Assembly (NCBI RefSeq): GCF_014068355.1
Contig: NZ_CP059674.1
Span: 682,001 to 746,000, forward strand
Reading direction: 5' to 3'
DNA length: 64,000 bases
Origin: Mycoplasma tullyi
GTDB taxonomy: Bacteria > Bacillota_I > Bacilli_A > Mycoplasmatales > Mycoplasmoidaceae
The position numbers and the translations under genes were made by a program. Under the pieces are notes generated by a model that worked only from the letters and a program-made list of their open reading frames with translations, was not told the origin of the DNA and did not search any database. Position 1 is the stretch's first letter. Every line of letters begins with the position of its first letter. This document shows positions 7,458 through 58,863 of the stretch, piece by piece.

Positions 7458-10400
7458 CTAAAAATCGTTATCTAAATCGATGTCAAAAGTACTGTTGAAC
7501 TCTAGATCACTCATTGAGTTGTTAGGTTCAAATGGAGGCAATCTTAATTTATCCATTCCATGAATTGCATCGATATCATCAAAATTACTTGTTAGTTCGT
7601 AATCATTGATTCTAAAGTTTTCATCTAAATAAGTATTACGATTTGAATAAATTAGATCGTTAGAATTGAAAATATCATTGTCTATACTTTCAAGTTCACT
7701 GAAGAATTCTTTAGGTTGATGATTTGAGAAGTATTCATAACCATGATTATCAACGATTGGATCATAACGTCTGAAGTTACCGTAGTTATTATTTACACTT
7801 TGGTTGAATTGGTTACGGTAAAGTTGTTCGTAGTTACGTCTAAGGTTTGGTTGAGGAATTTTGATACTTTCAAAAGTTGAACTTGGTTGAGATGCTCTTA
7901 AACTTTCAAAGCTTTGAGTAGGTTGAGACATTCTCATACTTTCATAGCTTGCATTTGGTTGAGACATTCTTGCACTTTCAAAGCTACGAATTGCTTGATC
8001 TATGTAATCGTTTGATACTGATACGTTGCGTTTATTAGCTAGATCACTAATTCGTTTGTAATCAGATTTGATCTTTCTAATTTGTTGTGCATAGATAGAT
8101 TTCAGATCACTGATCTTTTTATTGTAGAAGCTGATCGCTCTAGTTTTATTAGCGTGTTCAGCACGTAATTCTTGAATTTGTTCTTGAATGAATTTGTGAT
8201 CGTTAGCACTAAGTTGTCTCACTCTTACATCGTGTTGCAACTTGTTAAGTTGTGAACTGATAATTGGTAAGTCTTTTTGTAATAACGCGATTTCGTTCTT
8301 AAGTGTTGATAAGATGTAGTTGTAATTCTTAGTTGCTTCTGCTTCAGAGTTCTTAAGAATTTGTTTAATATTTTGAATACTTTGTTTAACTTTAGCTTGG
8401 TATTCTTCAGATTTGAAGACATTGCTTGTAGTTAATTGAACATCTTCATAGTTCATGATGCGATCGATTAATTCATATAGATCGTAGTTATTTTCATTAA
8501 CTAATGATAATGAATTATCAAAGTCGAATTCACTAGTTGGTTCACCAAAGTTGCTTGTAGTTCTTTGTTTTCTTGAAACTTTAGGTGATGAAGGATAAAT
8601 TTCTTCAGTAATTTCAGAAGTTAATGCTAATTGATTAGATCTAACTTCTTCACGAATATCGTTCATTTCTGAACGTAATTGGTTCTTAATTTGATTGAAT
8701 GATTCCATTTGAAGTTTAGTTAATTCTTCAAACTTACTAAAGTATTGTTTGAATAGTTCTTCTGAACGTTTTTCTAAAAACTGTTTCAATTCTGCCATAT
8801 CCTTTTTGTACTCTTCGTTGGTTACAGCAATTTGGTTTGCACTTACTTGTTGTTGAATTACTGGTTCAGTTACATCTAATTGTAGTTCAACTTCTTGAAC
8901 TACATCAGTAAGTACTTCATCATCACCTTCAACGATTAGTTGATCAAATCCTTGGTTTTCATCTAATTCCATGAATTTATCATCAAACTTAGTATCTAAG
9001 ATTGGTTCGTCTAGAGATGATTTTGTAAATGAATCAACTTTAGCAGATTGTTGTAATGTAGAAGAATTGATTAAATCATTAGTTTCTTCTAATAATTGAT
9101 CGATCATATCTTTTGAACTAGAAGAATCAGCAGTTGAGAATTCAGCCTTTAATTCTTCGTATAATTCACCATTAGCTAATGGTTGTTCTAAACCTAAATC
9201 TAATGCAGTTTTTTCTAAAGATGATTTTTCATCGAATTTAGGTAAGTCACTAAATTGTGATTTAGTTTCAAATTTAAATTGATCGTTAAATTTAGGAGGA
9301 ACATAATCATCTAATAATGATCGTTCTTTATTAATTTGAACTGGTTCAAGTGGTTTGATTACATCGATTGGTTCAACTTTTGGACGGTATTCTCTATTTA
9401 CAGTAGGAAGTTTGAATTCAACCTTATTGAATAAACCTTGTTGATCATCAAACTTAGGCATGTAATCATCTAATAATGATCGTTCTTGTTTAAATTGAAG
9501 TTGTTCAATTGGTTCAAGTTTGTCATCATATTTAGGTGTAATTAAATCATCTTTAATTGATGTTGATTTAACTTCAAATTTAGGTGATAGATCATCTAAT
9601 AATGATCTTGGTTTTTCAAGTTGAACTTGTTCAAGTGGTTTGATTACATCAACACGTTCAGGTTGAATGATTTCAACTGGTTTATTAACAGCTTGAGCAG
9701 TTGATTCAACTTCTTTGTTATCAGCTAAAACAGTCAAGCTAGTTTCTGGGGTTGATGAAACTTCTTGTTTTTGAGGTAACAATAATTGTGAATCTTGTTT
9801 AAAGAACTGATGAACGTTACTCATTGATTCTTCTTTAGCAACTTTAACAGGATCAACTTTTACTTCTTCTAAGAAATGAAGTGGTTTATTAACAAATTGT
9901 TCTTCTTTCTTCTCAAAACCAGAGAACACATAATCAGAACCTCGACGAGATGTTGATGCATTATGTAAACTAATTACATCTAAATCGCGAATATTACTAA
10001 AGCTATCGAATTCTTCTTTATAAACTTTAGGTTTGCTTATTTCATTGTGTAGTTCGTTGTGTTGGTTGTTTAATTCAAACTTATCGTTTTGATAAACGAT
10101 CATTTGGTTTTCAACTTCTTTAGCTGGAGATAATAATGGACTTGCTTTAGGAACAAAGTTGTTAAGTGTGATTAACTCGTTAGGTTTAGTAGTTTCTTGT
10201 TGAGCTTTAACTACTTCTTCTTTAATCTTAGCTACTTCTTGATCTTTTAATTTAGCTGACTCAAGGATTGCTTGTTGAGCCTTAGCTAGTTCTAATTCAA
10301 GTTCATGAATTCGTTGCTTTTGTAATTCATCTTCAATTAGTTTTTCAGATTTCTTAGTTGATGACTGATCTGGTACGAATTGATCATTTTCATCAAAGTA

Positions 10401-13400
10401 ACCATTTCAAATTCAAACATTCTTATCATTGTAATATCCGAATTGTTCATTACCAATGAATTTGTTGAAGAATGGTTCACTAGCTTTTTCAGGTTCAACT
10501 GATTTAGCTTCAACTTCTTGAGATTCTTGAGGTTTAGAGCTTTCTTCTTGCTTACTGAATTCTTCGATTACTTCTTCAGATTTTGTAACTGAAGATTGAT
10601 CTGGAACGAATTGATCATTTTCATCGAAGTAACCATTTCAAACTCAAACGTTCTTATCGTTGTAATAACCGTAATCTTCATTACCTATGAACTTATTGAA
10701 GAATGGTTCTTCTTCAACTAAAGTTACTTTGTCTTCTTTTTCGACTACAACTTCTTGAGATTCTTGAGATTTATTGATTTCTTCTTGTTTAGTGAATTCT
10801 TCAATTAGTAGATCAACTTTTTGAGTTTGAGTTTCTTTGTCTGAGACAAAATTATTTTCGTCATCGAAATAACCATTTCAAACTCAAACGTTCTTATCGT
10901 TGTAATAACCGTATTCTTCGTTACCAATGAACTTGTTGAAGAATGGTTCTTCCTCAACTAAAGTTACTTTGTCTTCTTTTTCAACTAAAACTTCTTCAAC
11001 AGTTGGTTTAGGTGAATCGAATTCAACGATTTCTTTAACTGGTTGAGCATCAACGTCTATTACAGTAACTTGAAGACCTGTTTCAAATTTAGGTTCGTTT
11101 TCTGGTAAGTCTAGAGTTATAGTTTCAACTGGTTTAGCTTCAACATCAACTAAAGTAACAGTATCAACAGGTTGAGGTTCAACATCAACTACACTAACTT
11201 GAAGGTCGGTTTCAACTTTTACTTCATCTTTAGGTAGTTCTAAATTAACAACTTCAACTGGTTTAGTTTTTAAGATGTTGTTGATATCAAAATCAGAAAC
11301 TTCATTAATTGTTGGAGTTACTTGAACAATTGTGTCAGTATCAAATGTTGGTTCATCAACTACATTAACACTTACAGGTAGCGTTTCATCAATATATGTT
11401 GGTTGTTGAATAGTTGAAACTGGTTTAGTAACAACTTCTGGCTGTTCAAAGATTTGAAGATCAATCTTTTCAGCTACTGGTTCAACGAATTCGATCTTCT
11501 TAACTTCTTCAACAGGTTTTTTAATAAAGAAATCTAATTTAGAAGCTTGAGATTCAACTTCTAAAGAAGGATTAATGTTAATTGGTTGAACATCAACATC
11601 AGATGATGCAACATTAACATCTACCTTGATTTCATCAGTTAGATGAGTAATCTGATCATATTTAGGTTGACTAATAATTGGCTGAATTACATCCTGTTGT
11701 ACTAAATTGAATTGGTCTAGATTTATTGGTGTAGGAGCAAATGCTTGTTGAGATGCTTCTGGAACAAAGCTGTTTGTATCAACACTAATTACATCATCTG
11801 CTACAGCATCTTCTAAAACAACTGGAGCTTGAGCTAGTAATTGATCAGAGTCACTACGTTTTGAGAAATCAAATACTTGTTCTTGAGGTTGAAGATTAAC
11901 TTCATTACCAGCAACTGGTAAGCTCAGTTTTTCTTCTTCAAAAACAGGTGTAATTTTTAGTTCTTCTGGTTGAGCTGGAGTAGCTGCAGGGTTTAATAAA
12001 CCACGGATTTCAAATTCTTCACCAACATCGATCTGACTATCATCAATTTGTTGAATGATGTTTTCAGCATATTCTTCTGATTCAACAACAACTAAAGCGT
12101 TTTGAGAAGGATCAGTTGATTTTGGTACATCTCCTGGTAAAACACCTTGTTCTGGGGTGTAAATTAAATTACCATCGAAGTCATAGAAGTTACCTGCTTC
12201 GTCAAAGTGACCAGTTCAGATTCATTCAGATGATTCATCATAGTAACCAAAGTCAATGTTACCAATGAATTGTTGAATATCGAATCCAAATGACGGTTCT
12301 ACAGTAGAACCATCGTCAATAACTGCTGGTAAAGCAGGTTCAACTGATTCAGATTCAACTTCCTCGTATTGAACAAACTCATCATCTGTAGCTGATTCTC
12401 CAACTACATCTTCTAGAGCTTGTTCAGCCATTTGTTCTACAGCTTGTTCATCTAATGATACCGAGTCGGTGTAATCTTCTTGTTGAGGAATGAACATTCC
12501 ATATTCATTAAAGTACCCTCTTCAAACTCATTCATCGTCTTCGTTGTAGTATCCATAATACTCATCACCAACGTAGTGACTTCAGTTGATTTCATCACCT
12601 GAAACAACATCATCAGTTTGAATCAATCCTTTATCAATACCTTCGTCTTCAACGTGAGTGAATTCATCGTAGAACTGATTATCAGTATCGACCATAACAT
12701 CTTCTGGATGTTGGTCGTATTGTTCAGCAAGAACTTCTTCGGGTTGTTGTTCTTCGTATTGAACTTCTTCTTCGTACTGTTCAGGTTGAGTTTCTTCGTA
12801 TTGTTCAACTTGAACTTCTTCTGGCTGCTGATCGTATTCTTCAACAGCAACTTCTTCAGGTTGTTCCTCAGCCTGAGCTTCTTCGTATTCTTCTGCTTGA
12901 ACTTCTTCAGCTTCAGGTTGTTGTTCGTATTCCTCGGCTACAGCTTCTTCAGATGCAACTTCAACTTGTTCTTCAGGCGCAGATTCTTCTACAACTTCTT
13001 GAGGTTGTTCAGTTGCTTCTTCAGCTACAACTTCTTCAGGTTGTTGTTCAACTACTGGTTGTTCAACAGCTTCTTCAGATTCAGCCTCTTGAGGTTGTTC
13101 TTCAACTTGAACTTCTTCTTCGTACTGTTCAGGTTGAGCTTCTTCTGGTTGTTGTTCAACTACTGGTTCTTCAACAACTTCTTCTGGTTGAGCAGGTTCT
13201 TCTACTGGTTGCTCTTCACTAGCAGCTACTTGTTCTTCACTTACAGGTTCAGCGTATTGTTCTTCACTAACTGGTTGACCTGATTCGTCATAGTATTCTG
13301 GAACGAAGTTGTTGTTTTCATCAAAGTAACCAGCTCAAACTCATTCATTGTTCTCGTCGTAGTAACCGTATCCTTCAACACCAATGAATTGTTCTCAGTA

Positions 13401-14558
13401 TTCTCCTGATTCTGGTTGAGCTTGCTCAGGTTGTTGTTCGTATTGTTCAGCTGGAACTTCTTCAGGTGCAACTTCAACTTCTTCTTGAGGTGAAGATTCT
13501 TCAACAACTTCTTCAGGTTGTTCTTCAACTTCTTGAGCTTGAACTTCTTCTTCAACAGGTTGTTCTTCAGCAACAGGTTCTTCTACTGGTTGTTCTTCAC
13601 TAGCAGCTACTTGTTCTTCACTTACAGGTTCAGCGTATTGTTCTTCACTAACTGGTTGACCTGATTCGTCATAGTATTCTGGAACGAAGTTGTTGTTTTC
13701 ATCAAAGTAACCAGCTCAAACTCATTCATTGTTCTCGTCGTAGTATCCATATCCTTCAACACCAATGAATTGTTCTCAGTATTCACCTGATTCTGCTTGA
13801 TCAGCTTCTTGCTCGTATTCTTCAGCTGGAACTTCTTCAGGTGCAGCTTCAACTTCTTCTTCAACAACTTCTTCAGGTTGTTCTTCAGCTTCAACTTGAA
13901 CTTCCTCTTCTGGTTGTTCTTCTTCAGCAGGTTCTTCAACAACTTCTTCTGGCTGTTCTTCAGCTTCAGCTTCAACTTGTTCTTCTTCTTGTGACTCTTC
14001 TTCGACAACTTCTTCTGGTTGTTCTTCTTCTTGTGCTGCTTCTACTTCTTCTTCTACAGCCTCATCATCAACAACTTCATCTTCATTAGGGATAAAGTTA
14101 TTATCTTCATCGAAGTAACCAGATCAAACTCATTCTTCGTTTTCATCGTAGTATCCATAACCTTCAACACCAATGAATTGTTCTCAGTATTCACCTGATT
14201 CTTCTTCTGCTTCAGCGCCTTCTACGTAATAATTGGCAAAGAAATCAAAAGGATTACCTTCTGCATCATATAAAGCAGATGCATCTAGTTCATACTTTTC
14301 ATATGGCTCAATGAAAATTTCGTTCTCAGGATCATATGAAATATAATAAGCATTATCATCTGCATCAAAAGCTACCTGAATTGAACCATCTTCAGGTAAT
14401 TGGCCGTTTTCATAGGCTAATGAAGCAGGTAAAACTTCTTCAGCACCGTCATAGAGGTTACCAAATATCGCTTCTGATTCTTCTTCGTTAATGCTTTCAG
14501 TAGTATCTATATCATCTTCGAAGTTGTCTTTTTTCTTATTTTTAGTCTTTTTAGCCAC
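7458..14558 (-). CDS. Giant EAGR-box cytoskeletal/cytadherence protein, HMW1/P200 type
   Basis: A 2366-residue protein of the attachment organelle (terminal organelle) family. Order: basic start 'MAKKTKNKKKDNFEDD'; eight EAGR boxes (aromatic- and glycine-rich, core like 'GYGYYDENNEWVWAGYFDE') near residues 125, 261, 388, 659, 775, 1205, 1285 and 1365; acidic Glu/Gln/Pro/Val-rich linkers; a middle with 'RSLLDDYMPKFDD'-like repeats; a Gln/Lys/Glu coiled-coil region (about residues 1895-2150); four copies of an 'SFES.R.SQP' repeat; and an acidic Asn/Asp-rich tail. There is no signal peptide or membrane helix, as expected of an internal cytoskeletal protein. Most box Trp codons are TGA, so read with the standard code it falls apart. 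HMW1 of M. pneumoniae has one box and P200 six; the coiled-coil C-terminus and the following membrane protein favour an HMW1-like role, the number of boxes P200. Confidence 0.88.
7845..7990 (-). repeat. Four tandem SFES-type repeats in the EAGR protein C-terminus
   Basis: Four successive units of about 14 residues read SFESARMSQP, SYESMRMSQP, SFESLRASQP and TFESIKIPQP. The DNA repeats ('ctttcaaa.ct...ggttgagac') are imperfect, so the array is old enough to have diverged but keeps its spacing. The Ser-rich units lie just after the coiled coil. Confidence 0.75.
10370..10970 (-). repeat. Triplicated 240-bp EAGR-box unit
   Basis: Three direct repeats, each about 240 bp (80 residues), are centred near 10410, 10650 and 10890. 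Each codes for one EAGR box with core 'YNDKNVWVWNGYFDEND' and an acidic linker. The second and third copies are almost identical in DNA over the box. They keep the reading frame. Confidence 0.85.
13194..13796 (-). repeat. In-frame direct repeat of about 220 bp, offset 381 bp, each with an EAGR box
   Basis: Bases from about 13194 to 13415 recur almost base for base from about 13575 to 13796. The 381-bp offset is 127 codons, so the frame is kept. Each copy encodes an EAGR box ending 'EYWEQFIGVEGYGYYDENN'. The near-identity implies recent duplication or ongoing gene conversion. Confidence 0.85.
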
Positions 14559-14658: not shown

Positions 14659-16101
14659 TTAAATATAAGATTTAAAAGATTTGAGTAAGAAAATTGGTTT
14701 GACTTGCTTGTTGTGATCAAGTCAACTGTTAAAGAAGTACAAGCTTAAACCTGCTAATACTATACCTATTAAAATGTATGAGATTACAGTATTAGATTTA
14801 ACAAAGTCTGTAGAAATCTTATCTCTTATAAAGGTTGTAAAGAAGTTAGCTGATGTAATTGCAATCGATGCCATTGTTTGGTTAATTCCAATCGGGGTGA
14901 TTTTATTCTTCTTAAAACCATATGATAGTGCATGAGCAATTAATAAGTTATATAAAACACCATAACCAAAACCTGAGATACCTTGAATTCCTAAATAGAT
15001 TCCACCTTTAGTTAATGTTGGAACTGAAGTTGAATTAATTAACAAGATCATTGAAGTATTGTATAGAACAAAGAATAAACTACCAATTAGTGCTACCATT
15101 CATTTGTCGAAGTATTTAACACCAACAACACCCATTAATACCCCACCAAGTAATTGCGCAGCACTAAATACACTTGATAAATAACCTTCGTATGGGGCGC
15201 TATTACCATTACCTACAAGTTGTTGTAAAGTAATTTGGGCAATCCCATCAGCTATAGCAAATCTAGTAAAGATTACGATTCCTGCAAATAAGATAACTAC
15301 AACAAAGCTATATATCTTCTTTGGAGAGCCATCTATAATGTCTTTTGGGTCTTCTTTTTTTAGACCAACAAATTGCGGATTTTCCCGTAAAAATCATCAA
15401 AAAACGATGTTCATTAAGATTACAATTACACCTATTAATCAAAGGTATTTTGTAATGTTTACATCTGCTGTTTTTTGATCTGTAATTGCTAGTGTTCTAA
15501 CTAATGATTGAACAGGAGAAGCAACAAAATCAGCAATCAATGGCGGAATTGATAAGATTGAAATCGCTAAAAACGGTTTTTCTTTAGCGTGTTGCTCATT
15601 AAATCATAGTGAAAAAGACCCAATACACGATGCTGCAATTCCTACACCAATTGTTTGAATTAAATTAGTCGCAAAACTAGGCTTGATAATAATCGGTATG
15701 AAAGTTGCTAATTGTAATAAAAGCGCGGCAAAAACGACCTTTTTTCGCGATTTAAATTTAATACCTAAATAGTCAAATAATGGTCTGAAAAATATACCTA
15801 CAAAACCATATAAACTTAATGGTAAAAATAATAAGCTTCGTTCGATTCCCAAATCGTTATGTAATGTTCCGCGATAACTGCGAACTAAAAAGATTGGTAC
15901 TCAAAAAATCGAATAAAAAACAAAGAGTTTCTTATAACCTTTGTTTTCGAATTTAATTTTCCAGAAAAAGATGATACTTATACTTAATGCAAGCAAAAAT
16001 AAAACCGCATTAATGATTAATGAGATCTTATACCTTTCTGATAAAACTATGCTTGCTTGATTAGTTAATTGTACTAATCATCAATCTATTTGATTATTCA
16101 T
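14659..16101 (-). CDS. Major facilitator superfamily transporter
   Basis: A 480-residue protein with about twelve hydrophobic helices and a polar central loop between helices 6 and 7 ('[15 protein letters not shown]' region), the usual MFS layout. The loop after an early helix contains '[20 protein letters not shown]', resembling the MFS loop-2 signature with its basic end. Substrate unknown. Its ATG at 16101 lies inside the 3' end of lepA (8-base overlap), so it is translationally coupled to lepA. Trp codons are TGA, including one 21 residues from the C-terminus. It closes the lipoprotein-lepA run. Confidence 0.8.
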
Positions 16102-17893
16102 CGTCTTGTAATAATTTTGAAAATGTTTCTTGTGGGATCTGCACTGATCCAATCGCTTTAAGGCGTTTTTTACCTTCTTTTTGTTGTTCTAAAAGTTTTT
16201 TCTTTCTAGAAACGTCACCACCATAACATTTAGCTAAAACGTTTTTACGCATTGCTTTAATTGTTTCTCTAGAGATTATCTTAGAACCAACTGCAGCTTG
16301 AATCGGGATTTCAAATAAGTGTCTTGGAATCAGATCTTTTAATTTTTCAACAATCTTCTTTGCTTTTTGATAAACAAACTGAGTGTGACTAATAAACGAT
16401 AAAGCATCAACTTTTTGTCCATTTAATAAGATATCAACTTTTACTAAATTTGAATCTCGATAACCAATGAGTTCATAATCTAAAGATGCATAACCTTTAG
16501 TAACAGATTTAAGTTTATCAAAGAACGAATAGATAATTTCAGCTAAAGGGATCTCATAAACCAGGATCTTTCTAGAACTGTCAATCTCAGATAAATCCAT
16601 GTATTCTCCGCGGAAATTTTGACATAATTCCATGATTGGTCCAATGAATTCATCAGGTGTTGAAATCTTTAATTTAACGTATGGTTCAAGCATACTTTTG
16701 ATCCGGTTACGTTCAGGCATGTTTGCTGGATTATCAACTTTGATTTCTTGTCCATCAGTTAAAAAACATTTATACATAACTGATGGTGCTAATAGGATTA
16801 ATGGAATATTGTATTCACGAACAATTCTTTCACGAATAACGTCCATATGCAATAAACCTAGAAAACCACAGCGCACCCCAAAGCCTAGAGCATTAGAAGT
16901 TTCATATTCATATTCTAGTGCAGCATCAGTTAAGACAATCTTTTCCATTGCTACCTTTAGATTTTGATAATCTGCAGTATCAACTGGATATAGACCAGCA
17001 TAAACCATTGGACTTACTTTACGATATCCAGCTAATGGTTTATCACACGGATTGTTAGCGTTCGTAATCGTATCACCAACATGTACGTCTCGGATTGTTT
17101 TAATTGAAGCAGTTACATAACCTACTTCACCAGCTTCTAGATAATCTCGACTTTTCATGTTAGGGTTTTTAATCCCAACTTCGGTAACAATGTATTTCAC
17201 ATTGTTAGCCATAAATAAGATCTCATCACCAACCTTTAATTTACCATCAAAGATCCGAATAAAACATACAACTCCTTTGTGAGGATCGTAGTAACTATCA
17301 AATATTAATGCTTTTAGTGGATCATCATCATTTGCATTTTTAGGTGGTGGAACCTTATTAATAATTGCATCTAAAACTTGATCAATATTTAAACCAGTTT
17401 TAGCTGAAATCAACGGCACATCTGAACAATCAATTCCGATTTTGGTTTCGATCTCTCGCTTAACTCGATCAACATCAGCCGAAGGTAGATCAACCTTGTT
17501 AATAACTGGGATGATTTCAAGATTATTTTCAAGTGCTAGATAAACATTTGATAATGTTTGAGCTTGTACACCTTGAGTGGCATCAACAACTAATAAAGCA
17601 GCTTCACAAGCTGCTAAACTTCGTGAAACCTCATAAGTAAAGTCGACATGACCAGGTGTGTCAATTAAATGAAAAGTATAATCTTGATCGTTTCTTTTAA
17701 ACTTTAGTTGAACTGCATTAAGCTTGATCGTGATCCCACGTTCACGTTCAAGTTCCATGCTATCTAAAAGTTGATTTTTCATCTCTCTTTTAGATACAGT
17801 TTCAGTAATCTCAATTAGTCTATCAGATAGGGTTGATTTACCGTGATCAATATGCGCAATAATACTAAAATTACGTATGTTTTTTTTATCCAT
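16094..17893 (-). CDS. lepA: Elongation factor 4 (back-translocase GTPase)
   Basis: A ribosome-bound GTPase that back-translocates stalled ribosomes. The 599 residues match the family length. G1 '[12 protein letters not shown]' is at residues 13-24, switch I 'ERGITIK' near residue 50, G3 'DTPGHVDF' near residue 79, and G4 '[10 protein letters not shown]' near residue 133, followed by domain II, the EF-G-like domains and the Lys-rich LepA C-terminal domain ('[20 protein letters not shown]'). It follows three small membrane-protein genes by 17 bases and overlaps the MFS gene. Confidence 0.96.
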
Positions 17894-17910: not shown

Positions 17911-18708
17911 TTATTTGTTAAATTCAAATTTAATGAATTGAATTGATTTCTTTCTTAATGATGCAGGGTTGTCTATATATTTCTTAGAGATTCTTACATA
18001 AGCAATTCAAACTGCAAAATAACTTAATGGGAAATAACCACACAATAATCCAATGATTGCAGCTCATGCAATCTTTGGATTATTAATTACATTAGTAACT
18101 CCACCATAAACTGAGTACACTGTACGATCAACAGTTTTATAAACATAAGGAACTGTGATTACATAGATTACATAGATAATTGGATAGATAATTCCTGGAA
18201 TCAAGTAAGTATGAAACTTACCAATATTTCTAGCTGGTGAATATACAAAAGCTAAGAATCCCGCAATAATGAAAGCTACTGGATTAAATAAGTGAACAGT
18301 TAACCCTCTTGCTAATCTAATCGGATTGGTAATATGTTTATAACCCAAACTACCAAATTGTAAGATGACATTATAACCAAAAAAGGTAAATAAGATATAA
18401 ACTATACTTGCTACTAAAAACTTATCTCTTTTAAGAAAACTATGTTTTGGTAAGAAAACATAGAAAAATGAAAAGACTACTAAGATAAAGTTACTTTGAT
18501 TAGTAAACTTATCAAACGTTCTAAAAGCATCAGTAAAGCCCTTCATCGTATCAGAGTTTGATAATAGTTCAGCAACAACTCCTTCAACAATGAAGATTGC
18601 TGTAGCTAAATTTAACCAAAACACAAAAAAGAAGATCTTTTGTGCTGTAGTTAATTCGTATTTAAATCAATGACTAATACTTTTGGGTTTTTTATCAATT
18701 AAATTCAT
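17911..18708 (-). CDS. Small multi-pass membrane protein, paralogue A of three
   Basis: A 265-residue membrane protein with about six or seven helices. It shares with the next two genes 'FDKFTNQSN' at the start of helix 2, 'FYVFLPKHSFLKRDKFLVA', 'HLFNPVAFIIAGFL' and a 'YPIIYVIYVI..PY.YK...T.YSVYG' block. The pattern of a helix-start T-x-(Q)-S/T-N and a membrane His resembles the eukaryotic/bacterial FAR-17a/AIG1 (Pr6Pr-like) membrane proteins, in which a Thr and a His are catalytic; this is a weak analogy from memory. Mycoplasma-specific DUF1600-type proteins are another candidate. It lies between paralogue B and lepA with gaps of about 20 bases, in one transcript. Confidence 0.7.
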
Positions 18709-18728
18709 ACTATCTTATCCTTTTTAAA

Positions 18729-19526
18729 TTAGTTATGTGGATTGATCACCACTTGGTTTTGTTCATATTTCTTAGAGATCTTCCTAGCTCCAAACCAAGT
18801 GAGATAGGTCGTGACAGGAACTAAAACAAATAATAAGAACATAATAGCAGGGTAAGCAAATTGCGGATAATCCTTCGTATTTGTTGCCACATTATAAACC
18901 GAATACGTCATACCATTTGGTCGGTTGTATACAAACGGAGCCATAATCACATAAACACAATAAATGGCTGGATAGATCATTATTGGTAGTAGATAACTAC
19001 TTAGTTTTTTTAATTTCAAGTTTGGATCATAAACAAACTTGAAGAAACCACAAACAATAAAAACGATCGGATTGATTAAGTGTTTAAATAGATCGATGAA
19101 CAATAAAAAAGCAGTTGCTTTTGAACCATAACCAATCTTTGAATAACTAAAAGCTAAGATTGATTTAGGCGCAACGATTACTGCTATTGCATTAGATATA
19201 CTTACCAAGTTATAAACAAAAAAAGTGATGAAAATATAAGTGATGCAGGCGATTAAAAACTTATCGTTTTTAAGAAAACTGTGTTTGGGAAAAAACACAT
19301 AAAACAACGAAAAGAAAAAGATTAAAATGTTCGTTTGATTCGTAAACTTATCAAGCGATAAAAATCCATCACGACCTCTGAATAAAAGTGAAAAAAGACC
19401 GTGAAGTACTAATAAAACACTAATTGCATTAACAATAAAAGCAAATAGAAAAATTCTTTGCGACTTATTTAATTGGTTCTTGTATCAACTCCTAACGCTG
19501 ATCTTTTTCAGTTCTAATCGATTCAT
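18729..19526 (-). CDS. Small multi-pass membrane protein, paralogue B of three
   Basis: A 265-residue membrane protein, clearly homologous to paralogues A and C: 'LDKFTNQTNILIFFF', 'FYVFFPKHSFLKNDKFL', 'HLINPIVFIVCGFFKFVY' and 'YPAIYCVYVIMAPFVY' occur in the same order. It keeps both the Thr in the FTNQT segment and the membrane His before NP. About six or seven helices, a short basic N-terminus and a basic C-terminal tail after the last helix. ATG at 19526 is 15 bases after the stop of paralogue C. Function unknown. Confidence 0.7.
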
Positions 19527-19541
19527 CAGTTCTTATCAACT

Positions 19542-20309
19542 TTATGCATTCAGTTTGGCTTTTCTTTGAGCAATTTGGAAGTAATGATTATTTGTCTTTT
19601 TAATCAAGAAGATAATTAAGATAAACGATGCAGGGAAATATAAGAATGTCATTAACATACCAACTGTAATTGCCATATTACGATTGGTAACTACATTTGT
19701 GTAATTTCCATAAACTGAATAAATGGTATGATCTGGGGTTTTATAAATCAATGGAATGGTTAATACGTAGATCAGATAAATGATCGGATAGATCATTCCA
19801 GGTAAGATAAACTTCGAATAATTTTGAATCTTTTCAATTGGATTAAAGATGAATCTTAAATATCCAGCAAAAATGAAAACGATTGGGTTAATGATTTGTA
19901 AATAAATCCCAGAAGCTAAATAGCTTTGTGAAAAACTAGCACGGTTATTGGCTTGATCTACTAAATCTTTAAAGATTCCCCCTGTAAAAAATGTAAACAG
20001 GGTATACACCATACAAAAGACTAAGAATCTTTCATTTTTAAGTACGCTGTTATTTGGATAAAAAACAAAGAAAAATGAAAAGAAGAATAATAACACACTA
20101 CTTTGGTTGGTAAAATTACCAATTGCGGTAAAACCATTGATAAATGGTGAACCAAAGTAATTAATATCTATACTAGAGTAGAAATTATAGATAACAAAAC
20201 CTAAACCGATAATGTTAAATAAGAAGACTGTTAAAAACAGTCTTTGAGATTTTGTTAACGTTTGGTGATATCAATTTCTTAAACAGAATCTTTGTTTTGT
20301 ATTAACCAT
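19542..20309 (-). CDS. Small multi-pass membrane protein, paralogue C of three
   Basis: A 255-residue membrane protein, the most diverged of the three. It has 'IGNFTNQSSVLLFFF', 'FFVFYPNNSVLKNERFLV', 'QIINPIVFIFAGYLRFIF' and 'YPIIYLIYVLTIPLIYK'. The membrane His of A and B is Gln here, so if that His is catalytic this copy is inactive. The ATG at 20309 lies 6 bases after the stop of the 1202-residue lipoprotein, so coupling between the lipoprotein and the membrane proteins is likely. Confidence 0.7.
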
Positions 20310-20315
20310 ATTTTA

Positions 20316-23300
20316 TTACGACAACTTTCTACCAAAGATGGTTCCTAAAGCATTGTACAAGCGTTGATCAAATACAGTTAATTTATTATTAGCTGTTAAA
20401 TGATTAATTGCTTGGATTTGTACTGTTGAATTACTTGCAGTCATCGCAATTACTGTTAATAATTCAGATGGGCTTAAACCTAATGCTTTAGTTGGATCAT
20501 TTAATCAACCAGCTCCAAGATTGGTTAAATCGTTGTAACTTACTTGTTTAACATAAGCAGCCACTCTTCTTAAACTACCTTGTAGGAATAAACTGTGGTT
20601 TAATTCAAAGTTCTCTGATTTAGTTGTTCCGATATAACCAACATATCGTTCAAACGCTTGAGCAGGAATCATATCGATCATTTTCTTGATCTCAGTAACT
20701 CTTTCATCAAAGCTTAATGGTTTACCATCACTATTATTACCAAAGTAAGTATTGTTTGGTACTCTAGTTTCATTAGTAATTGAACGAGCCAGTTCATCTA
20801 ATTCACGTTCAGTTTTAATGTTATCAACATAAGTTAATAAATTAGTTTTACTACCAAAACCATAGAAAGCACCTTGTTCACCTGATGAACCATAAGTTGA
20901 GAATAATGCTGATTTCAATTCATTACTAATCGGTGCAGATCCGTTTTTGAATACTAATCCAGCAAAACCATATTGAGGCATTGTTGGTGCGTTATTTGAA
21001 TCTGAAACATTGTAAGTTAATGAACTGTTATCTCAGAAGTTAGCTGGTTTAATTTTCATTGCTTCTGAAGAGATCATGTTCTGTCAGTTAGCTACAGATG
21101 AACCTAAAATTCCATTTGGATTTTGATCAAAAGTAATTAATGGGTTTAATGTTTGATTATTAGTTGTTGCATCATCTAAAGGCTGACTATTAGATGCTGT
21201 AGTAACATTAGCATTGAAATTAATTGGCAATGATCATGTTGCAAATGCAACATCACCAGGACGCATATTTAACATTGCAATGTTCTTGAAGTTTTGTAAA
21301 TTATTTCTTAATAATCATTGGAATGTGTATAAGAATCTATAGTAACTAAATGTTAGATCACTAGCTTGCTGAGGGTTTGATATTTGATCAGCTCAAGCTT
21401 TATCAACAACCTTGTTGAATGAATTGAAATCAGTATAAATTCCATAAGAAGTTTTGTCATTTAAGCTATTAAATGCACTTAGTTGGAAAACGTTTCTAAT
21501 TACATTAGTTAATAGATCTTGACTAATTCCTTCAAAACTAGATACTTGGTTATTAGTAGTATTAAAGAATTGTCTGAAATTAGGATTTGATCTAATGTAG
21601 TCAATTCTAATTTCATTTGTTAATGTTGATGTTGAAATAATTGATCCAACAGCTAAATTAATTGCTAAATATAAACCATTTCATTGATTTAGATCTTGAT
21701 CAGTTGAATTAACTTTAACAAAAGTGTTTTGACTTTGGTTATTTAATAATGTTGTTTCAACATTTAATTTAGTTAATAATTTATCAATCTCAGCATTTCT
21801 AGCTGCTCTTGTATCAGTTACATATTTATTAATTTCTGCAACTGTACCAGTGCTAGCATTTGTAGCAGTTAAACCATAAAGTGATAAGTAGTATTGTTCT
21901 AATCCATTGAATGAACCATCAGTTGCTCTTACATATGGTAATCTAGCTGCAATCCCATTGTTAGCAGTTTGGTTTGTTCTAGCATTATCTTCAAAACCTT
22001 TAGCACGGTCATAGATCTTAGCTCTGATGTTTTTAACTTCTGTATCTAAGTTAAGTGCATTTAGATAAGCAACTTGAGTTTTAACTAAATCATTAACTAG
22101 ATCATAAACTTTTTTAAAGCTAGTTCTAAAACTGAAGTTTGCATTATCTTCAATATTGAAGATGTTGTTCTTATCCATTGGATTTTTCATGGCATCTTCA
22201 TACATCTTACTTAATGCTAAGTAAAGATTTAGAGTTTGATTCTTAGTGAAATGATTTCTGATCTGAGAATTTAGATCAAAATCATATCTTTCATTCTCAG
22301 ATAAGTTAACAGATGATCTTAATAATGAACGGTAAGCTAAAAATTGTTTTTGTTTGTTAATATCTCTAGCCATACCACTTTGGTTTAAGTAGTAATCTCC
22401 ACCATCAATCGCCATTACATGGATACCATCTTTACCACGAGAAAAGATGAACTTGCTAGCGTTCATGTTTTTACTCATGACATTAGTTTTCATATTAGTT
22501 GATTCTGAAGAATCAACTGTTTCCATCCCGTTTCATTCAAAAATTTCGTGGATGTCTTTAGTTCCAGCAGCTAAATCTGCATAAGCATTATAGTATGGAT
22601 CAGTAGTTCGACCCGCTTCACCAGTTTTTAATAATGAATTATTGTTAATCTTTTGTGAGAAAGTGTTGGTTGCTGTAGTCTCGTTATCACCTGCACCTGT
22701 ACCAGTAGCTTTAGCTCTAATAAAGTTATTGATCAGATTAACATCATCAATATCAGATTGAACCATACCAACATTATCACGGTTGGTATTATTAGTTTGC
22801 TTTAGATATTGTTGAACATAAGCAGCACTAAATGATACGTCAAAACTATTAAACATATCAGAAGCAGTCATTAACAACTTACCACCAGAATCTGCTGAGA
22901 AGTTATTAGGAATATCAATTCCTTTAGTTGTATTATTTACATAACTATCCAACCCTCTAGTAATGAATTGGTTATAAGCTCTCATTCCCTTGTTTTCATC
23001 AAACGGTTGGTCTTTAGGATTTTTGAATGCTTGGAAATTATAACTAGCTACTAGTGCATTTGCACTTACAGTTCGATCATTAAAGATTGAATTAAGTCCA
23101 TCTTTAGGAATTTCATTGGTAAATACAATTCTAGACACTAAATTAGGATTTTCATCAGTCACTCACTGATTGAAAGCAAACGCTTGGATTTGTGCTAAGA
23201 ACTCATTATTAGTTTGTTCGTTATTAGATGCACTAAATCCACCATCAGTAAATCTAATGTTAGCTCAGTTAGCTGGATCGTTTAAGATTGCTCTTGAAGG

Positions 23301-23924
23301 AATCTTAGTTAAATTTGAATAAACAGTAAAACCATCAGCGTCAGTTGACATTGTTGGTGCATAGTTTAAATAAGAATCCTTAAATATCGAATCGAAGAAG
23401 TCGTTGCTAATTTTTTGATTAAGTTGGTTTTGAAGATAACTTTCTTTAGTTCCGCCATTAGGATCGAATAATTGAGTTTGGATTAGATCCATGAAGTTAT
23501 TTCCATAGATCTTCTTATTATCTTCAATTGAAGTATTTAATTGATCATTAACATCATCACTAAAGTTTTGGTACTTATTACTTAAAACTGATGATTTAGA
23601 GTTTTTGTAATAGTTAGCTAAACTATCAGCTAATAAAGATGAAAGTAAGCTTTGGAATCCTTGATTGTTTTTAAGTGCAGTTGCAAGTACAGTTTTAGCT
23701 TGATCTTTTTGACCACCTAAAATGTTACTACTATCACCGCCAACAAACCCTAGGTTTTGATTATTACCATTGTTACTAAAACCAGTTTGGAATTTGTTCA
23801 TTAGTAATTGGTTGGCATTATAAGCAGTTCCACAAGAACTTACAAGAACTCCAGCTAAAGAAATTAACGATAAAAATGAGACTTGTTTAACGATTCGATA
23901 TTTTTTATTTTTACTATGAGACAT
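20316..23924 (-). CDS. Large lipoprotein, MG307/MG309/MG338-like, copy 2
   Basis: A 1202-residue surface lipoprotein. The basic N-terminus and hydrophobic stretch end in the lipobox 'AGVLVSSC' (Cys at about residue 30). It is homologous along its length to the next gene: 'LFDPNGGT', 'NLVSRIVFTNE', 'SGGKLLM.ASDMFN.FDV', 'RGKDGIHVMAIDG' and the C-terminal 'AYVKQVSYNDLTNLGAGW' segment occur in the same order. Mycoplasmas of this group carry a family of about 1200-residue lipoproteins (MG307, MG309, MG338), and this seems to be a member. Many Trp codons are TGA. It begins 39 bases after its paralogue, so the pair is cotranscribed. Function unknown; surface exposure is inferred. Confidence 0.8.
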
Positions 23925-23963
23925 TAGCTTTTCTCCGTTTAAAATTTTACTACTTTATTTAAT

Positions 23964-26900
23964 TTATGAATTCCTCATCACCCATCTTAATCCCAGTGCA
24001 TCATATAAGCGTTTATCATTAACATCAATTAAAGATTGCTGATTAATGATCGCTAATTCTGCATTGTTTTGGTAAGAACTATCAAATGCATATCGTGCAA
24101 CAATTGATAGTAATTCATTAACTGATAAACCTAAACGATTTTCAGGTTTTGTTAATCATGATTCACCACCTAATTCAGCTACTTCTTTAAAGTTGATTTG
24201 CTTAATATAAGTCGTTCAGTTTAATAATGACTTAGCTGCTGTAAATGGAACAAAAGTTTCTGGTTGAGTTGTAAAATCAGTTGAAGCAACTTTGTTGTTT
24301 CCAACATAACCAACAAACTTCGTATAAACATCAGCTGGCAAGATCTTAGTATCACTTAATTGACTAATTAAGTTAGCTTTTCTTTGTTCAGCACTTAATG
24401 CCATTCCATTAGCATCTGTATCAAACAAGTTGATATTAACTTGCGCTCTTCTTAATAATTCAACAAACGCATCCAATTCACGGTTTGTTGTTAATGTGTT
24501 TACATAATTAACAACATCTTCAAGTGAACCACCAAATGCGTATAACACCCCGTTTTGACCAGATTGTTCGAAGTTATCAAATAATACAGATTTAACTTCA
24601 CTGTTTAGATTTGTATTATTAGCATTAGCAATACTTAAACCATTAAATCCATATGCCGTAACATTGTTATCAGTAGTTGAATAATCAATATTATTAGCAT
24701 TAGAATTAGGATTATTATTAGCTGCTTTATTTAAATTAGCAAAGTTTAAACTTGTTCCTTGTAAATAGTTAGGGTTGGCAATAAAGTTTGTAAAGTTAAT
24801 CTTATCTTGAGTGCTTGCAATATTACCATTATCATCTAACTTAGTTCCATTAGTTAACGTTCATGAAACATTAGCACTAACACCTCTAGTGATTTGAGTT
24901 GATAAGATTCGCTTAAACTCAGCTAAATTATCTTGAATTAAGTATCTAAACGTATTTAGATATCTTAGATAATTTAATCTAGCATCATCATTAAGATTAC
25001 TGATCATTCTTTCATTATCAAAGTAATTATTTAAGACAGTATCATACTCAGCTTTAGTAGTTCAAGAACCATACTTAACTTTATTAGTTTGACTTGCTCA
25101 CGTACTTTGAATGAAATAGAAGTTGACAACACTTTTAATCTGATCAGCAGTTAAACCTTCAAAGTCTTTAAACTGATTGGTTTTAGGATCATAGAAGTTG
25201 GTAAAACGTTGATCATTTAGATAAAACTGACGTTTGAAATCATTTGTTGATGTAGGTAATGCGATTGTTGTGTTGATTGCTAGATTAGCTGCCAAACTAT
25301 ATTGCGGATCATATCTTGAATCAACAAAGACATTTTGTGAGAACTGATAAGAAGCTACACCATTTAGTAATAATCCTTCAGCTGCAACTTTAGCTGCTTG
25401 GAAATACTTAGTCTTAGTATCATTAACAACTTGATCAAATAATTTACTTAATCCTTGATCTTTAGTTGTTAATGTATCAGCTGGTAATAACTTATTCTCA
25501 ATTAATAGATCTTTATAATAACTTTCAATTCCCACATAAGAACCATCTGCAGCTGCTGGGTGAGGTAACTTGCCTGCAATTCCAACTTCTGGGGTCTTAT
25601 TATTTTTAATTAAGTTATCAAACATCCCCGCTCTTTCAATGATCTTTTCTCTAGCATTGATCGCATCGTTTCTTACTTTAAGAGCATAATCATAATCAAC
25701 TTTAGATTTAACTAAATCTTTAAGAATTGATGAAGCTTTAGTTAAAGATGCTAATAAAGCTTCGTTTCCTGGTTTGTGTAAAAATGAATCTTTATTATCA
25801 ATTGCATTTAATAAGAATTCAATTGTTAAAGTAACATTATGATCTTCATAGTATTTCTTAATTGGATCTAAGATGTTAAATTGGTAAGATTTTTCACTAA
25901 AGAATTTAGAGAAGTCGGGATTTTTAACTAATTGATTTCTAAATAATAAGAACTCTTTTTGCTTATCAACGTTTCTAGCATTACCAGTTAGATAGTAATT
26001 AGCCCCATCGATTGCCATGATGTGAATCCCATCTTTTCCACGAGATAAGATGAATTGTTTTTCGATATTATTTGCATCTGCATCAGATGAAGTTGGTCTG
26101 ATGTATTCGTGAAGGCTAGCTTTACCTTCTGCGTATTGTTTGTATATGTCGTAGTAACTGTTATCAGCAATTTTATCAACTAAGATACTTGATTTAACTT
26201 TTTCTGAAAGTTCTTTTAATTGTGGATCATTAGAAGTTAAATCTAATGTCGTTGAATAAGCAGAATTTGCATCAGTTGAATTAGCAAAAATGAAATTCTT
26301 CATGATGTTGTTAGGATCTAATGTAACTGAAACAACCCCATTATCCTTATCAACATTATTAGTTAAATCTTGATATTGTTGAACATAAGCCGTGGTGAAA
26401 GCAACATCAAATGTGTTGAACATTTCACTTGCGCTCATTAACAACTTACCACCAGAGTCTGATGAAAATTGATTTAAGAAGTCAACAGTGAAGTTATCTT
26501 TGTTGTAATAGTTAACTAAACCATTGTTAGCTACTAATTGTCTAAATCCAGTTGATAGTTTAGGTGATGTTTGATCAACTACATCTTTAGGATCTGTAAA
26601 TGCTTGGAAACTATAACTAGGTTTTAGTTCATCACCTAAAACTTTTTTATCAAAAATCTGATCTAAACCACCTTTGATATTTTCATTAGTAAATACGATC
26701 CGAGAAACTAAGTTCGGATTTTCTTTTTTAACTCATTGATCAAAAACGTATGCTTGGAAATCTGCAAACATTTGGTTATCGTTTAGAACTGATCTTCTAT
26801 CAACATAACCTTCTGAATAAAACTTAAAGTTTTTTCAATTTTCAGGTTTACTGATTACATCAATTAAAGGGTTATCAACCTTTTTATTTTTGTCATCGAA

Positions 26901-27413
26901 ATAACCTAAGTAGTTGTTTTGGAAAACCATTGATGAAAAATCAGTAAACACGTTAGTTAAAACTTGTCTACGTTTGTAACTATCAGCAGTTCCACCATTA
27001 GGGTCAAAAAGATCTGTTTGTCTTCTGATTTCAAAATTTCTTCTAAACTGATTTCTTAGTGAAGTTGTTTCAGATTCAAGTTTAGTTTCAGCATCTTTTT
27101 CTCAATCGCGATATTTTTGCATAATGCTGTTTGAAGCATTATTGCTGTATCAATCTGCTAGTGAGTTGGCGATTAGAAATCTAGCAAAATCATTGAAACC
27201 TTGATCAGTTTCTAATGAATTTTGCAAAACAGCATTAAACGAGCCTGCACTAGAGTTGCTAAAATTTTCGGGATGTTGTTTGGTTTTAAATAAACCTTCA
27301 ACAACCGGATTGTTAGCAGCAACAGAACAACTACTAGCCACCATACTTATTACAGTTACACCACTTAATAAGAAGGAAGCTGCAAGAATTTTGTGTTTTT
27401 TGTTTTTAAACAT
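23964..27413 (-). CDS. Large lipoprotein, MG307/MG309/MG338-like, copy 1
   Basis: A 1149-residue surface lipoprotein. The lipobox is 'SMVASSC' (Cys at about residue 29) after a basic, hydrophobic signal. Shared blocks with copy 2 include 'LFDPNGGTADSYKR', 'NPNLVSRIVFTNE', 'SSDSGGKLLMSASEMFN', 'AYVQQYQDLTNN' and 'SRGKDGIHIMAIDGANYYL'. The MAIDG block, conserved between two otherwise diverged proteins, may mark a functional core. It heads the transcript that runs through copy 2, three membrane proteins, lepA and the MFS gene. Preceded by a TATAAT at 27481. Function unknown. Confidence 0.8.
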
Positions 27414-27480
27414 AAAACTAGTTATCTACATATACAAATAAATGAAGAAACGCCAAGGATCCTTCAACTATATGCTTATA

Positions 27481-27486
27481 ATTATA
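27481..27486 (-). promoter_or_regulatory. -10 box for the lipoprotein operon
   Basis: TATAAT on the minus strand, 67 bases before the ATG of the first lipoprotein, in the only gap (97 bases) between it and the ECF S-component gene. A palindromic AAGGATCCTT lies between it and the start codon. Confidence 0.45.
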
Positions 27487-27510: not shown

Positions 27511-28413
27511 TTATCAACGTAAACGCGATAGGTTGAAAAAGTTCTGTAAATAAGGTTCTGAGATCTTAATTAGTGCAATCACACAGATAATTAAGATTGG
27601 TAATCTTAATGTCTCTTTAATTACTCTTGGAATTAAAAAGGCACTTAGAATAAAGTCTCTTGTTTTAGGTTTTTGGTGCACGACATTAATCAAGTATTCG
27701 TTAATAGCAATTGTTCCTAATACTAATGAATACAAGATCGATAAAGTTATCATCATCGTTGAAACATACAAGAACAACTTAATGGACTCTTTTGTTTTCC
27801 GGTTTTTTAGATATAGCAATCAACTTGTTATTTCTGAAAAAACAAAAAACAAAGCCATGAAAACCATACTTAAAGTGGTTCCAAATGAATTGTTTCTAAC
27901 TAAGAAACGATTGGTTTCAGGATTGTTATATAAAGATAAGAAGATAAATCCAACTACACAAAAACCCAGGATTAAGATTTGTTGGAAAACAAAATCCCAG
28001 AAGTTTGAAGCATAGTTTCTTCTAATTCTATAAATCGAACCAAACAAGCCAGCTGTAAAAATAATCATCGGTTCTTGAATGGCAAACAATCAATACCAAA
28101 CATCACCACCGCCTAAAAAGAACGATAATGCGTCAGTTAAAAAACCAATCGGTATGGCTGCTACTATCCCAAAAATCCAACCTATTAAAGCCAATCCAAC
28201 TCAAGAAATCCCCAAACTAATTGTTGGTCCAATACGAACGACAAAAAGTCCTAAGATAACTTTAAGAGCAATAAAAATTGCTAAAAAAGAAATTAGGTAA
28301 ATGTTGTATCTTAACTTAAGTGGTCAAAACGGTAAAAAAAACTTGATGATCGCTGTTTTGTTGATTGACTTTTTAGCGACACCTAGTTCTTCTTGCAATC
28401 TTATTTTTTGCAA
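27511..28413 (-). CDS. ECF transporter S component, folate-type
   Basis: A 300-residue membrane protein. Residues about 35-110 look like the S component of energy-coupling factor importers: 'ISFLAIFIALKVILGLF' followed by 'RIGPTISLGISWVGLALIGW' and 'AAIPIGFLTDALSFFLGGG', the pattern typical of folate-family S components. The C-terminal part has further helices, longer than the about 180 residues of a standard S component. It would bind a vitamin and dock on the EcfA-EcfA-EcfT module at 41.9-44.9 kb. The start is TTG at 28413, two bases after the stop of the previous gene; no ATG fits. A TGA Trp is the last codon before TAA. The substrate is an inference. Confidence 0.72.
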
Positions 28414-56587: not shown

Positions 56588-58672
56588 TTAAGATTGTGAA
56601 CTACCTGAAGTAGAAGCAGTAGCAACCGCATCACCTTGTGCAGCACTATTTAAAGTAAATGTTAAATTCCCTATGTACGGAGTATCACCAGTGTTTATAC
56701 CAGCTAAAAGAATTTTGTTTAAGCCTTTTTGTAAACTTAAAGTTTTATTAGAATTTGTTGAACTACGAGCAGTAGTCATGTTATCCATTGTGTTAAAGTT
56801 CCCCACAGTATTTCAATCAGCTTGTTTATTCGCTATGAAATCTACAGCATGAGTACTATCATTGTCTTTATAGAATCTTATGCTTCTTGTTGCATTAGCC
56901 ATACTACTTGAAAAAATGTAAGACCCACTAATAGAATAGTTACCAGCTTGCGGAGCATTCACATAGATTGTGTATGTTCTATGATCGCCATCCAGATTAG
57001 TACCAGAAGGAGTACTATTGAAATTTGGATACATACGCATTACCGTATCTGTAATAGTTCCAAGTCGACTCTGATTACCACCGATAAATCCAACAAAATA
57101 AGCTGGACTAGAAATTTGCGCACTATTAGTACTTCTTGGGTTAGTTAATTGATAAAACAACATGCTGTAGTTTGCAGCTAACCCATAACCTTTCAAGAGA
57201 TCAACTGAAACAGATTTTTGATTATTATCTTCTGATAAAGTATTACCAAAAATACTATCGTAAATCTTATTTTTATTAGTTTCATCATCTGATGAAGTTA
57301 TGTACATGTTTCCGATTAAAGGTGCTACTTTAGATGCACTTTCACCATTCATTGTCGGAACGCTAAACTCAACTGTGTTTTGACCAAAAATTAAATCAGT
57401 TAACTTAATTTTAGCTACATTAATATCAGCTACTGTTGGAGTTTCATTCATTGTAGCAGTTTGATTCATTGCTGGGTCAGCATTTTCTAAAGCCATAGGC
57501 GGAGCAGCTTCTGTTGCACGACTAGTGCCTGCTGATTGAGTTGCTGGTTTAAATTCAACAGTTTGTGCCTCTTTATTATTCAGTTTATACTGTAACCCAA
57601 CGTTATCACTAGTTTTAATTAACTTATAAGGGAAATATAAATAACCTGTTGATGGTCCGTAATTATTAAATGTTAGGGTGTATTTTCCGTCTGTTCCAGT
57701 TAAACTATAGATTCATGATACATCACTCACTGGTTGTGTTTGATTTAGTATTGCTGTATTACTTGTTCAAGCTTTTCTTTGTGCAAAACTTCAATTAGGA
57801 CGATCGCTTCCACTTGTACCTGTACCAACATCTACACTATAACCAACAAAGCTATAGTTTCCTGGTTGTTGTTGATTACTACTATCAACACCTGTTAATT
57901 TAGTTTTATCTAAAACTTCTTTAAGAAAACCTGTTGATAAAGTTTCTGCGTTACTCTTTCAATCATTAAGTTTAGAAAGGGCATCCGTAATCTTAGTATT
58001 AGCACCAGCTACATCTTCTGCTTTTAATGTTACACTTCCATCCATTGTTTCTAATGGTTGGTTGGTAAGCGTCTTACCAGATTCATATAGAGTTGTTAAA
58101 TTATTTTTAATTGTTTCAAAATAAGTCTCTGTTAAACCACCTAAAACATTATTCTCGTTTTTTACCGTTAATTTTAATGAATTGTATGCAGTGACTAAGG
58201 GTTGATTGGCACTATCAAAAGTTCGTTTATTGTTAGCAGCTGTGTCAATAGCTGTTTGTAAAGTTGATGTGGCATTTTTAACTTGTTCTACAGTAGCATT
58301 CTCATTGTCTAATGTAGATTTAGAAGTTGAGTATGCAGATGTTAAAGTTGCTTTTATTTTTGCATAATCAGCATAAAGACTGATATTATTAGTTTCAGAA
58401 TCAATTAATGTTGTTAAAACTTGCCTAGCAGCTGCTAATTGTTGATCAACATTGTTAGCTTCAGTACCACCGCTTGGGGCATCATTCATTTCTGCGCCAC
58501 TATTTGAATTGGTGTTTTTATTGAGGGTGGTGTTAGATGGATTTTCGCTATTACTTGAAGAACTTGAATTCGGAACAAGTGATATTGCTTGAGTACAGCT
58601 TGCAGCTGCTAACATTACAAATGAACCCATACCCAATAAACTAACAAACTTAATAATGTTTTTTCTTTTCAT
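56588..58672 (-). CDS. vlhA: VlhA haemagglutinin lipoprotein (1st in array)
   Basis: A phase-variable surface haemagglutinin. 694 residues. Signal 'MKRKNIIKFVSLLGMGS' with lipobox 'LAAASC' (Cys at residue 25-27), a Ser/Asn/Thr-rich tether, then a helical repeat domain ('AARQVLTTLID', 'LQTAIDTAANNK') and a beta-rich C-terminal domain with 'DTPYIGNLTFTLNSAAQG' at the end. Other family blocks are 'NYSFVGYSVDVG', 'FAQRKAWTSN', 'YLYFPYKLIKTSDN' and 'LIGNMYITSSDD'. An extra segment near residues 395-425 is Ala/Thr/Met/Pro-rich and absent from the two neighbours. Upstream are a TATAAT at 58691 and a GAA tract of 13 units; M. gallisepticum vlhA is expressed at 12, so this copy is probably silent. Confidence 0.93.
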
Positions 58673-58690
58673 AAACAATAAAAATAAAGA

Positions 58691-58696
58691 ATTATA
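58691..58696 (-). promoter_or_regulatory. -10 box of the first vlhA gene
   Basis: TATAAT on the minus strand, 18 bases before the ATG of the first vlhA gene, and about 111 bases from the GAA tract. No equivalent TATAAT is seen before the second vlhA gene. Confidence 0.45.
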
Positions 58697-58807
58697 TCTA
58701 ACTTAAATAAATTAAGAAAAATACATGAAATTAAATAAAAATCGAATTAATTTAACTTCATTTTCGTTTATTGACAAGTGGGTAATGATTCGTAACCTTC
58801 TAAGAGC

Positions 58808-58846: not shown

Positions 58847-58863
58847 TAGAAAATAAGGGTTTT
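58847..58863 (-). promoter_or_regulatory. Conserved flank upstream of the GAA tract
   Basis: On the coding strand AAAACCCTTATTTTCTA runs directly into the GAA tract. The same 17 bases stand in front of the second tract (61083-61099), although other upstream sequence differs. It may be a binding site for the activator that senses tract length. Confidence 0.5.

Follow-up and report, generated by a model that had tools for sequence, protein, structure and literature searches.

The window analysed here is a stretch of 64,000 nucleotides from Mycoplasma tullyi (contig NZ_CP059674.1, positions 682,001 to 746,000), which carries a run of genes encoding two giant lipoproteins, here called LipA and LipB, followed by three six-pass membrane proteins, M3, M2 and M1 in the order of transcription. 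We consider, with fair confidence, that the whole is best explained as a lineage-specific operon in which a surface foldase of a known type is combined with co-expressed membrane proteins. As judged from profile matches, LipA and LipB are ordinary members of the family DUF3713, and the lipoprotein half thus represents a known kind; a branch-specific rearrangement placed a tripled membrane gene of the family DUF1600 beside the lipoproteins. Open reading frames (ORFs) were called with genetic code 4. In the 867,815-bp genome, LipA and LipB are the only DUF3713 genes and M1 to M3 the only DUF1600 genes.

M1, M2 and M3 matched the DUF1600 profile (PF07667) with 127, 131 and 119 bits, respectively (cut-off 25). 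M2 is 41% identical to M1 and 34% to M3, and the sole NCBIfam match was one of M1 to the MAGa3780 family, below the threshold. For the history of the triplet, a tree of 41 DUF1600 proteins was used, from which M. bradburyae (G078) was omitted as near-identical to G077. One clade (support 95/86) united the 15 copies of the window, G079, G077, M. imitans (G081) and G083, and its sister was a solo gene of M. genitalium near 555.7 kb (L071:5668). This gene shares 37% identity with M1 and is alike in length, in its six passes and in its Thr/His/Tyr pattern. The gallisepticum branch lacks a counterpart of the other M. genitalium DUF1600 gene, which lies at 159 kb. The tree placement therefore indicates that a single gene, solo and MG443-like, relocated to a position downstream of LipB in the branch ancestor and was then tripled. 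Orthologues of M1, M2 and M3 were found in G077, G079 and G081. For G083, the M3-type copy alone was clear, and the remaining two copies paired together at 86/77. Relocation and triplication are specific to the gallisepticum/imitans/bradburyae branch, and M3 lost its conserved His afterwards. Unlike these relocated copies, DUF1600 genes elsewhere are solo genes in unrelated contexts. In a separate duplication, G001 carries a tandem pair of long DUF1600 proteins (387-395 aa; L099:4445-6829) with no DUF3713 gene near.

The AlphaFold2 model of M2, computed from 18 sequences, consists of six long helices (predicted local distance difference test (pLDDT) 85, predicted template modelling score (pTM) 0.82). 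Among 33 relatives, the density of Lys plus Arg was 0.19-0.29 per residue in loops assigned to the inside versus 0.07-0.12 in those assigned to the outside, and this difference argues for a topology with both termini inside. The most conserved positions (M2 numbering) are Thr62, Gln64, Asn66, His149, Pro153, Tyr189, Tyr192, Tyr211 and Thr215. Going by helix ends and topology, they would sit in the outer half of the bilayer or in the third outer loop. The conserved Thr and His are kept as Thr69 and His139 in M1 and as Thr62 and His149 in M2. M3 retains the Thr, with Gln (Q138) in place of the His and Ser in place of the conserved Asn. The window, G079 and G081 share this change from His to Gln in their M3, and the M3 of G081 also has Asn instead of the Thr; every other protein in the set of 41 keeps both Thr and His. 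The ratio of nonsynonymous to synonymous substitution rates (dN/dS) was 0.21-0.29 for M3 and 0.10-0.16 for M1 and M2. Since selection on M3 is relaxed yet still constraining, M3 is not a pseudogene. Because the conserved Thr, His, Tyr and Asn would cluster in this outer half, the most likely role of M1 and M2 is to act on a ligand or substrate outside, with M3 as a degenerate copy. The three genes thereby constitute a natural experiment, being recent copies of which one has lost a residue that nearly all relatives retain.

A fold search of the Protein Data Bank (PDB) with the M2 model gave no match (best E 0.26, template modelling (TM) score ~0.2), and a literature search on DUF1600 yielded a single mention, in a list. 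Among viral models, Foldseek returned six-pass ORFs of alphabaculoviruses (for example Sucra jujuba nucleopolyhedrovirus Orf126; probability 1.00, TM ~0.5), which we treat as a lead only given E-values of 0.02-0.4 and identities of 5-12%. The baculovirus paper states no function for Orf126. A relationship within bacteria was well supported by profile comparison, according to which DUF1600 would be a branch of the Pr6Pr superfamily. HHalign of the DUF1600 profile against 16 Pr6Pr proteins from Bacilli gave 99.2% over 177 columns (E 2e-19, a pairwise value not to be read as a database E-value). The controls remained at or below 0.2% for six column shuffles and the reversed alignment, and at or below 0.7% for five unrelated families of the window. 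Both groups display the patterns FTxQSN, HxxxP and YPxxY, but M1 to M3 had no HMMER match to NF038065 (Pr6Pr) in NCBIfam at E up to 10. A literature search on Pr6Pr found nothing. An orphan family is in this way tied to a widespread superfamily.

Both lipoproteins matched the DUF3713 profile (PF12506) over its full length (LipA 730 bits, LipB 779 bits; cut-off 27.2), and they share 34% identity. Each has a signal peptide and a lipobox, SMVASSC29 with Cys29 in LipA and VLVSSC30 with Cys30 in LipB, in line with the surface location suggested by the initial annotation. Their dN/dS values (0.11-0.17) indicate purifying selection, which acts on all five genes of the unit. Solved relatives comprise only PDB entries 9qgq, 9gn0 and 9gnh. 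LipA matched 9qgq and 9gn0 with E-values of 1e-108 and 4e-102, LipB matched 9qgq with 6e-95, and the homology of LipA to Mpn444 extends from residue 37 to the C-terminus. The depositors entitled 9qgq 'Homotrimer of the extracellular PPIase Mpn444 from Mycoplasma pneumoniae' (PPIase, peptidyl-prolyl isomerase), and 9gn0 and 9gnh 'Uncharacterized lipoprotein MG309 homolog'; text on the function of Mpn444 was not found in a literature search. For the lipoproteins, the initial annotation's statement that neither family has a known function is contradicted by this homology to a protein deposited as a trimeric extracellular PPIase.

Like Mpn444/MG309, LipA and LipB combine full-length homology, a lipobox and a giant ectodomain with HMW1 and MG313-MG316 genes nearby. 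Unlike MG307 and MG309, which have one gene between them, LipA and LipB stand in tandem without an intervening gene and are followed by three DUF1600 genes, and their trimer and PPIase activity are predicted by homology. In the mechanism we propose, LipA and LipB would be exported by Sec and lipidated at Cys29 and Cys30, and their large ectodomains would fold outside. These ectodomains would most likely trimerise and serve as extracellular prolyl isomerases or foldases for surface proteins, a role filled by PrsA or SurA in other bacteria, while M1 to M3 would be co-expressed with them as six-pass DUF1600 proteins. With a tandem pair and a solved relative at hand, comparison of the paralogues opens a way into surface protein folding in wall-less bacteria. 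The MIB-MIP and P116-type lipoprotein systems were set aside, as Pfam gave no match of useful score besides DUF3713.

LipA and LipB occupy the MG307/MG309 (MPN436/MPN444) locus beside HMW1. In M. genitalium (G080, locus L068), the corresponding block, which we take to be MG307-MG308-MG309-MG310-rpsD-HMW1-MG313-MG314, holds the same lipoproteins and neighbours as the window, without DUF1600 and without lepA. Synteny between the two includes the DUF3713 genes, HMW1, the S-component of an energy-coupling factor transporter (ECF-S), the MPN449 family, holA and comEC. The lipoprotein half of what had been called an undescribed system is accordingly a long-annotated locus. All 46 well-assembled genomes examined in the family carry DUF3713, and among the 198 genomes of the order that were searched, none outside the family has it. 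Genomes carry one to six copies, and tandem copies occur across the family. In a quick tree, LipA copies of the gallisepticum branch cluster together, as do the LipB copies, and the alvi-like and other Mycoplasmoides genomes make two groups of their own. Such a pattern could arise either from recurrent duplication or from blurring by gene conversion. The proposal that the unit grew by tandem copying holds in so far as both components were duplicated in tandem, but not together as a single block: DUF1600 was tripled recently and in this branch only, whereas DUF3713 tandems are family-wide. One of the six tandem DUF3713 genes in G024 (G024:C1:911058-914582) contains an in-frame TAA and is apparently broken. 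Where the relatives have the MPN449 and holA genes, G079 (L063:15679-20000) instead has a BNR-repeat, sialidase-like gene of 938 aa and part of a LipA copy, an N-terminal fragment that shares 95% identity with LipA of the window.

Features of the unit and its flanks (positions in the window)
Feature	Position	Strand	Basis
LipA, DUF3713 lipoprotein, 1149 aa	23964..27413	-	PF12506 over residues 40-1118; PDB 9qgq/9gn0; alignment
LipB, DUF3713 lipoprotein, 1202 aa, LipA paralogue	20316..23924	-	PF12506 over residues 65-1172; PDB 9qgq
M3, six-pass DUF1600 protein, 255 aa	19542..20309	-	PF07667; residue table; dN/dS
M2, six-pass DUF1600 protein, 265 aa	18729..19526	-	PF07667; AlphaFold2 model; topology
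M1, six-pass DUF1600 protein, 265 aa	17911..18708	-	PF07667; residue table
lepA, 599-aa ORF, so named in the initial annotation	16094..17893	-	17 bp downstream of M1
Candidate promoter/leader of the unit	27443..27486	-	97-bp gap upstream of LipA

The ORFs and the PF12506 and PF07667 matches agree with the coordinates, sizes, gaps of 6-39 bp and paralogy of both families given earlier. In the order of transcription, the spacing (bp) is LipA-39-LipB-6-M3-15-M2-20-M1-17-lepA. Most ORFs of the window share the minus strand, and many are separated by less than 20 bp or overlap. The tight packing from which joint action had been proposed is therefore real but weak evidence of joint function when taken alone, because short same-strand gaps are usual in the window. 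The linkage of lepA appears incidental: it lies ~720 bp away in G083 and at a different place in M. genitalium, and it is probably a neighbour rather than a functional part of the unit.

Transcription of LipA to M1 as a single transcript is likely. The 97-bp gap before LipA holds GTAGTATAAT and a 7-bp inverted repeat, which are kept in all six branch genomes. A candidate -10 box, TATAAT, lies at 27486-27481, and a hairpin with a stem of 7 bp (TGAAGGA...TTCTTCA) at 27466-27443. Its closing pair is T-A in five genomes and G-C in G083, and a G-U pair occurs in the window and in M. imitans. The fold z-score is low (-0.9 to -1.7), so the structure of the hairpin is weakly supported. Terminators of M. 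gallisepticum are reported in PMC4245973 to have some five A-T pairs and two G-C pairs, and given this form the hairpin might serve either as a leader element or to end transcription of the gene upstream. No comparable promoter or leader element was recognised in the shorter downstream gaps; the 39-bp gap between LipA and LipB holds TAAAAT. In the operon map of M. gallisepticum (PMC4245973), the main text mentions no lepA and no lipoproteins. In several relatives, a GATATAG repeat flanks the -10 region on both sides; the conserved region before LipA might be an operator or leader.

The order LipA-LipB-M-M-M is fixed in all six genomes of the branch, and a branch-specific functional link of the lipoproteins and M1 to M3 is possible. 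A second adjacency was found in M. penetrans (G024) and Malacoplasma MAG2 (G025), in which DUF1600 proteins of 415-445 aa, from a distant subfamily, are encoded on the same strand downstream of the DUF3713 array (gaps of 89 bp and 120 bp, respectively). Fewer than 0.1 such adjacencies would be expected by chance (~0.1% per independent location, at most ~60 locations), by a rough estimate that ignores phylogeny, and the two cases probably represent a single event. We regard this adjacency as a hint of linkage. The DUF3713 arrays of G023, G029, G031 and G022 have no adjoining DUF1600 gene. Contexts of solo DUF1600 genes vary, and in Malacoplasma include a ribose-phosphate pyrophosphokinase and a Toprim protein. 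Neighbours of 1268 and 1320 aa next to DUF1600 genes in G072 and G074 had no match to the DUF3713 profile, the one in G072 having a SecA-like start by eye.

Several results weigh against the explanation that we favour. DUF3713 occurs without DUF1600 in two genera (g3 and g4, 10 genomes), and DUF1600 exceeds the cut-off without DUF3713 in seven genomes of other families. The two are unlinked in M. genitalium, in four other Mycoplasmoides genomes and in most Malacoplasma, and genomes with both mostly keep them apart. Since each occurs alone and both are often unlinked, they are not obligate partners; the co-occurrence for which the initial annotation had proposed a check is seen in many genomes, but does not extend to all, nor usually to linkage. 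The PPIase label of Mpn444 stems from the depositors' title, none of the Pfam and NCBIfam matches of LipA and LipB names a PPIase domain, and a fold prediction of LipA from six sequences reached a pLDDT of 37 and was discarded. Five block shuffles of the Pr6Pr alignment, in which ten-column motifs were kept, scored 5-90% over at most 48 columns (90% over 16), as compared with the 177 columns of the real pair. Finally, the single transcript is a prediction from sequence.

Part of this evidence would also fit a history in which a DUF1600 gene came to lie after the two lipoprotein genes, multiplied there and was kept because read-through from the LipA promoter expresses it, the two families having unrelated jobs. 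We give this a little less than an even chance. It agrees with the unrelated contexts of solo DUF1600 genes, with the housekeeping gene lepA in the same run and with the tight same-strand packing that is normal in the window, but it does not account for an order kept in all six branch genomes or for the second adjacency in Malacoplasma. The same two observations, together with conserved DUF1600 residues that point outwards, would instead speak for one surface machine, in which M1 to M3 form a membrane base that docks LipA and LipB trimers for export, lipid handling or the processing of host molecules, roles that the initial annotation had suggested. Such a machine seems unlikely, as either family is found without the other and the two are unlinked in M. 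genitalium and most Malacoplasma, and as the chance estimate for what is probably one event carries no phylogenetic correction. A physical complex of the lipoproteins with the membrane proteins is speculative.

Two Thr hydrolases with six passes, AIG1 and ADTRP, have the residue pairs T43/H134 and T47/H131, respectively (PMC8123165). M1 and M2 might be membrane hydrolases or acyl-transferring enzymes of this kind, with a catalytic Thr/His pair and M3 as a pseudoenzyme, which together with the lipoproteins remodel lipids or lipid-modified surface proteins; we consider this improbable. The two groups are alike in their six passes and in the approximate places of Thr and His; in M1 and M2, of ~260 aa, the conserved Thr lies towards the outer end of helix 2 and the His in helix 4. 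The Thr-His spacing is 70 in M1 and 87 in M2, versus 91 in AIG1 and 84 in ADTRP (positions from PMC8123165), and the His is missing in one paralogue only. In contrast, the Pr6Pr or DUF1600 profile scored below 1% against human AIG1, as shuffles did (the AIG1 sequence used agrees with primers in PMC11139994 at both sites). The profile of these hydrolases of fatty acid esters of hydroxy fatty acids (PF04750) had no match in 149 genomes of the phylum, the M2 model is without a PDB fold match, and DUF1600 carries further conserved residues, Tyr192 and Tyr211. The resemblance to AIG1 may serve as a lead. A long shot is that a trimeric surface foldase is coupled to six-pass enzymes with an outward Thr-His site, two active and one a pseudoenzyme, and that M. 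penetrans evolved such a coupling on its own, using another DUF1600 subfamily. If true, coupling of a foldase to six-pass enzymes in a wall-less bacterium would give DUF1600 its first function and offer a clue to the Pr6Pr superfamily.

Upstream of LipA, beyond the 97-bp gap, lie an ECF-S-like gene (27511-28413), an MPN449-family gene, holA, a comEC-like gene and valS. Downstream of lepA, a gene resembling the major facilitator superfamily is followed by an HMW1-type protein of 2366 aa (7458-14558), with the HMW1 N-terminal domain (TIGR03836; 124.8 bits, cut-off 85.2) and eight EAGR boxes. It is about twice as long as its M. genitalium counterpart (1140 aa in L068). At 56588-63211, the window also carries three tandem Mycoplasma haemagglutinin genes of the vlhA type (PF05692) with FIVAR domains.

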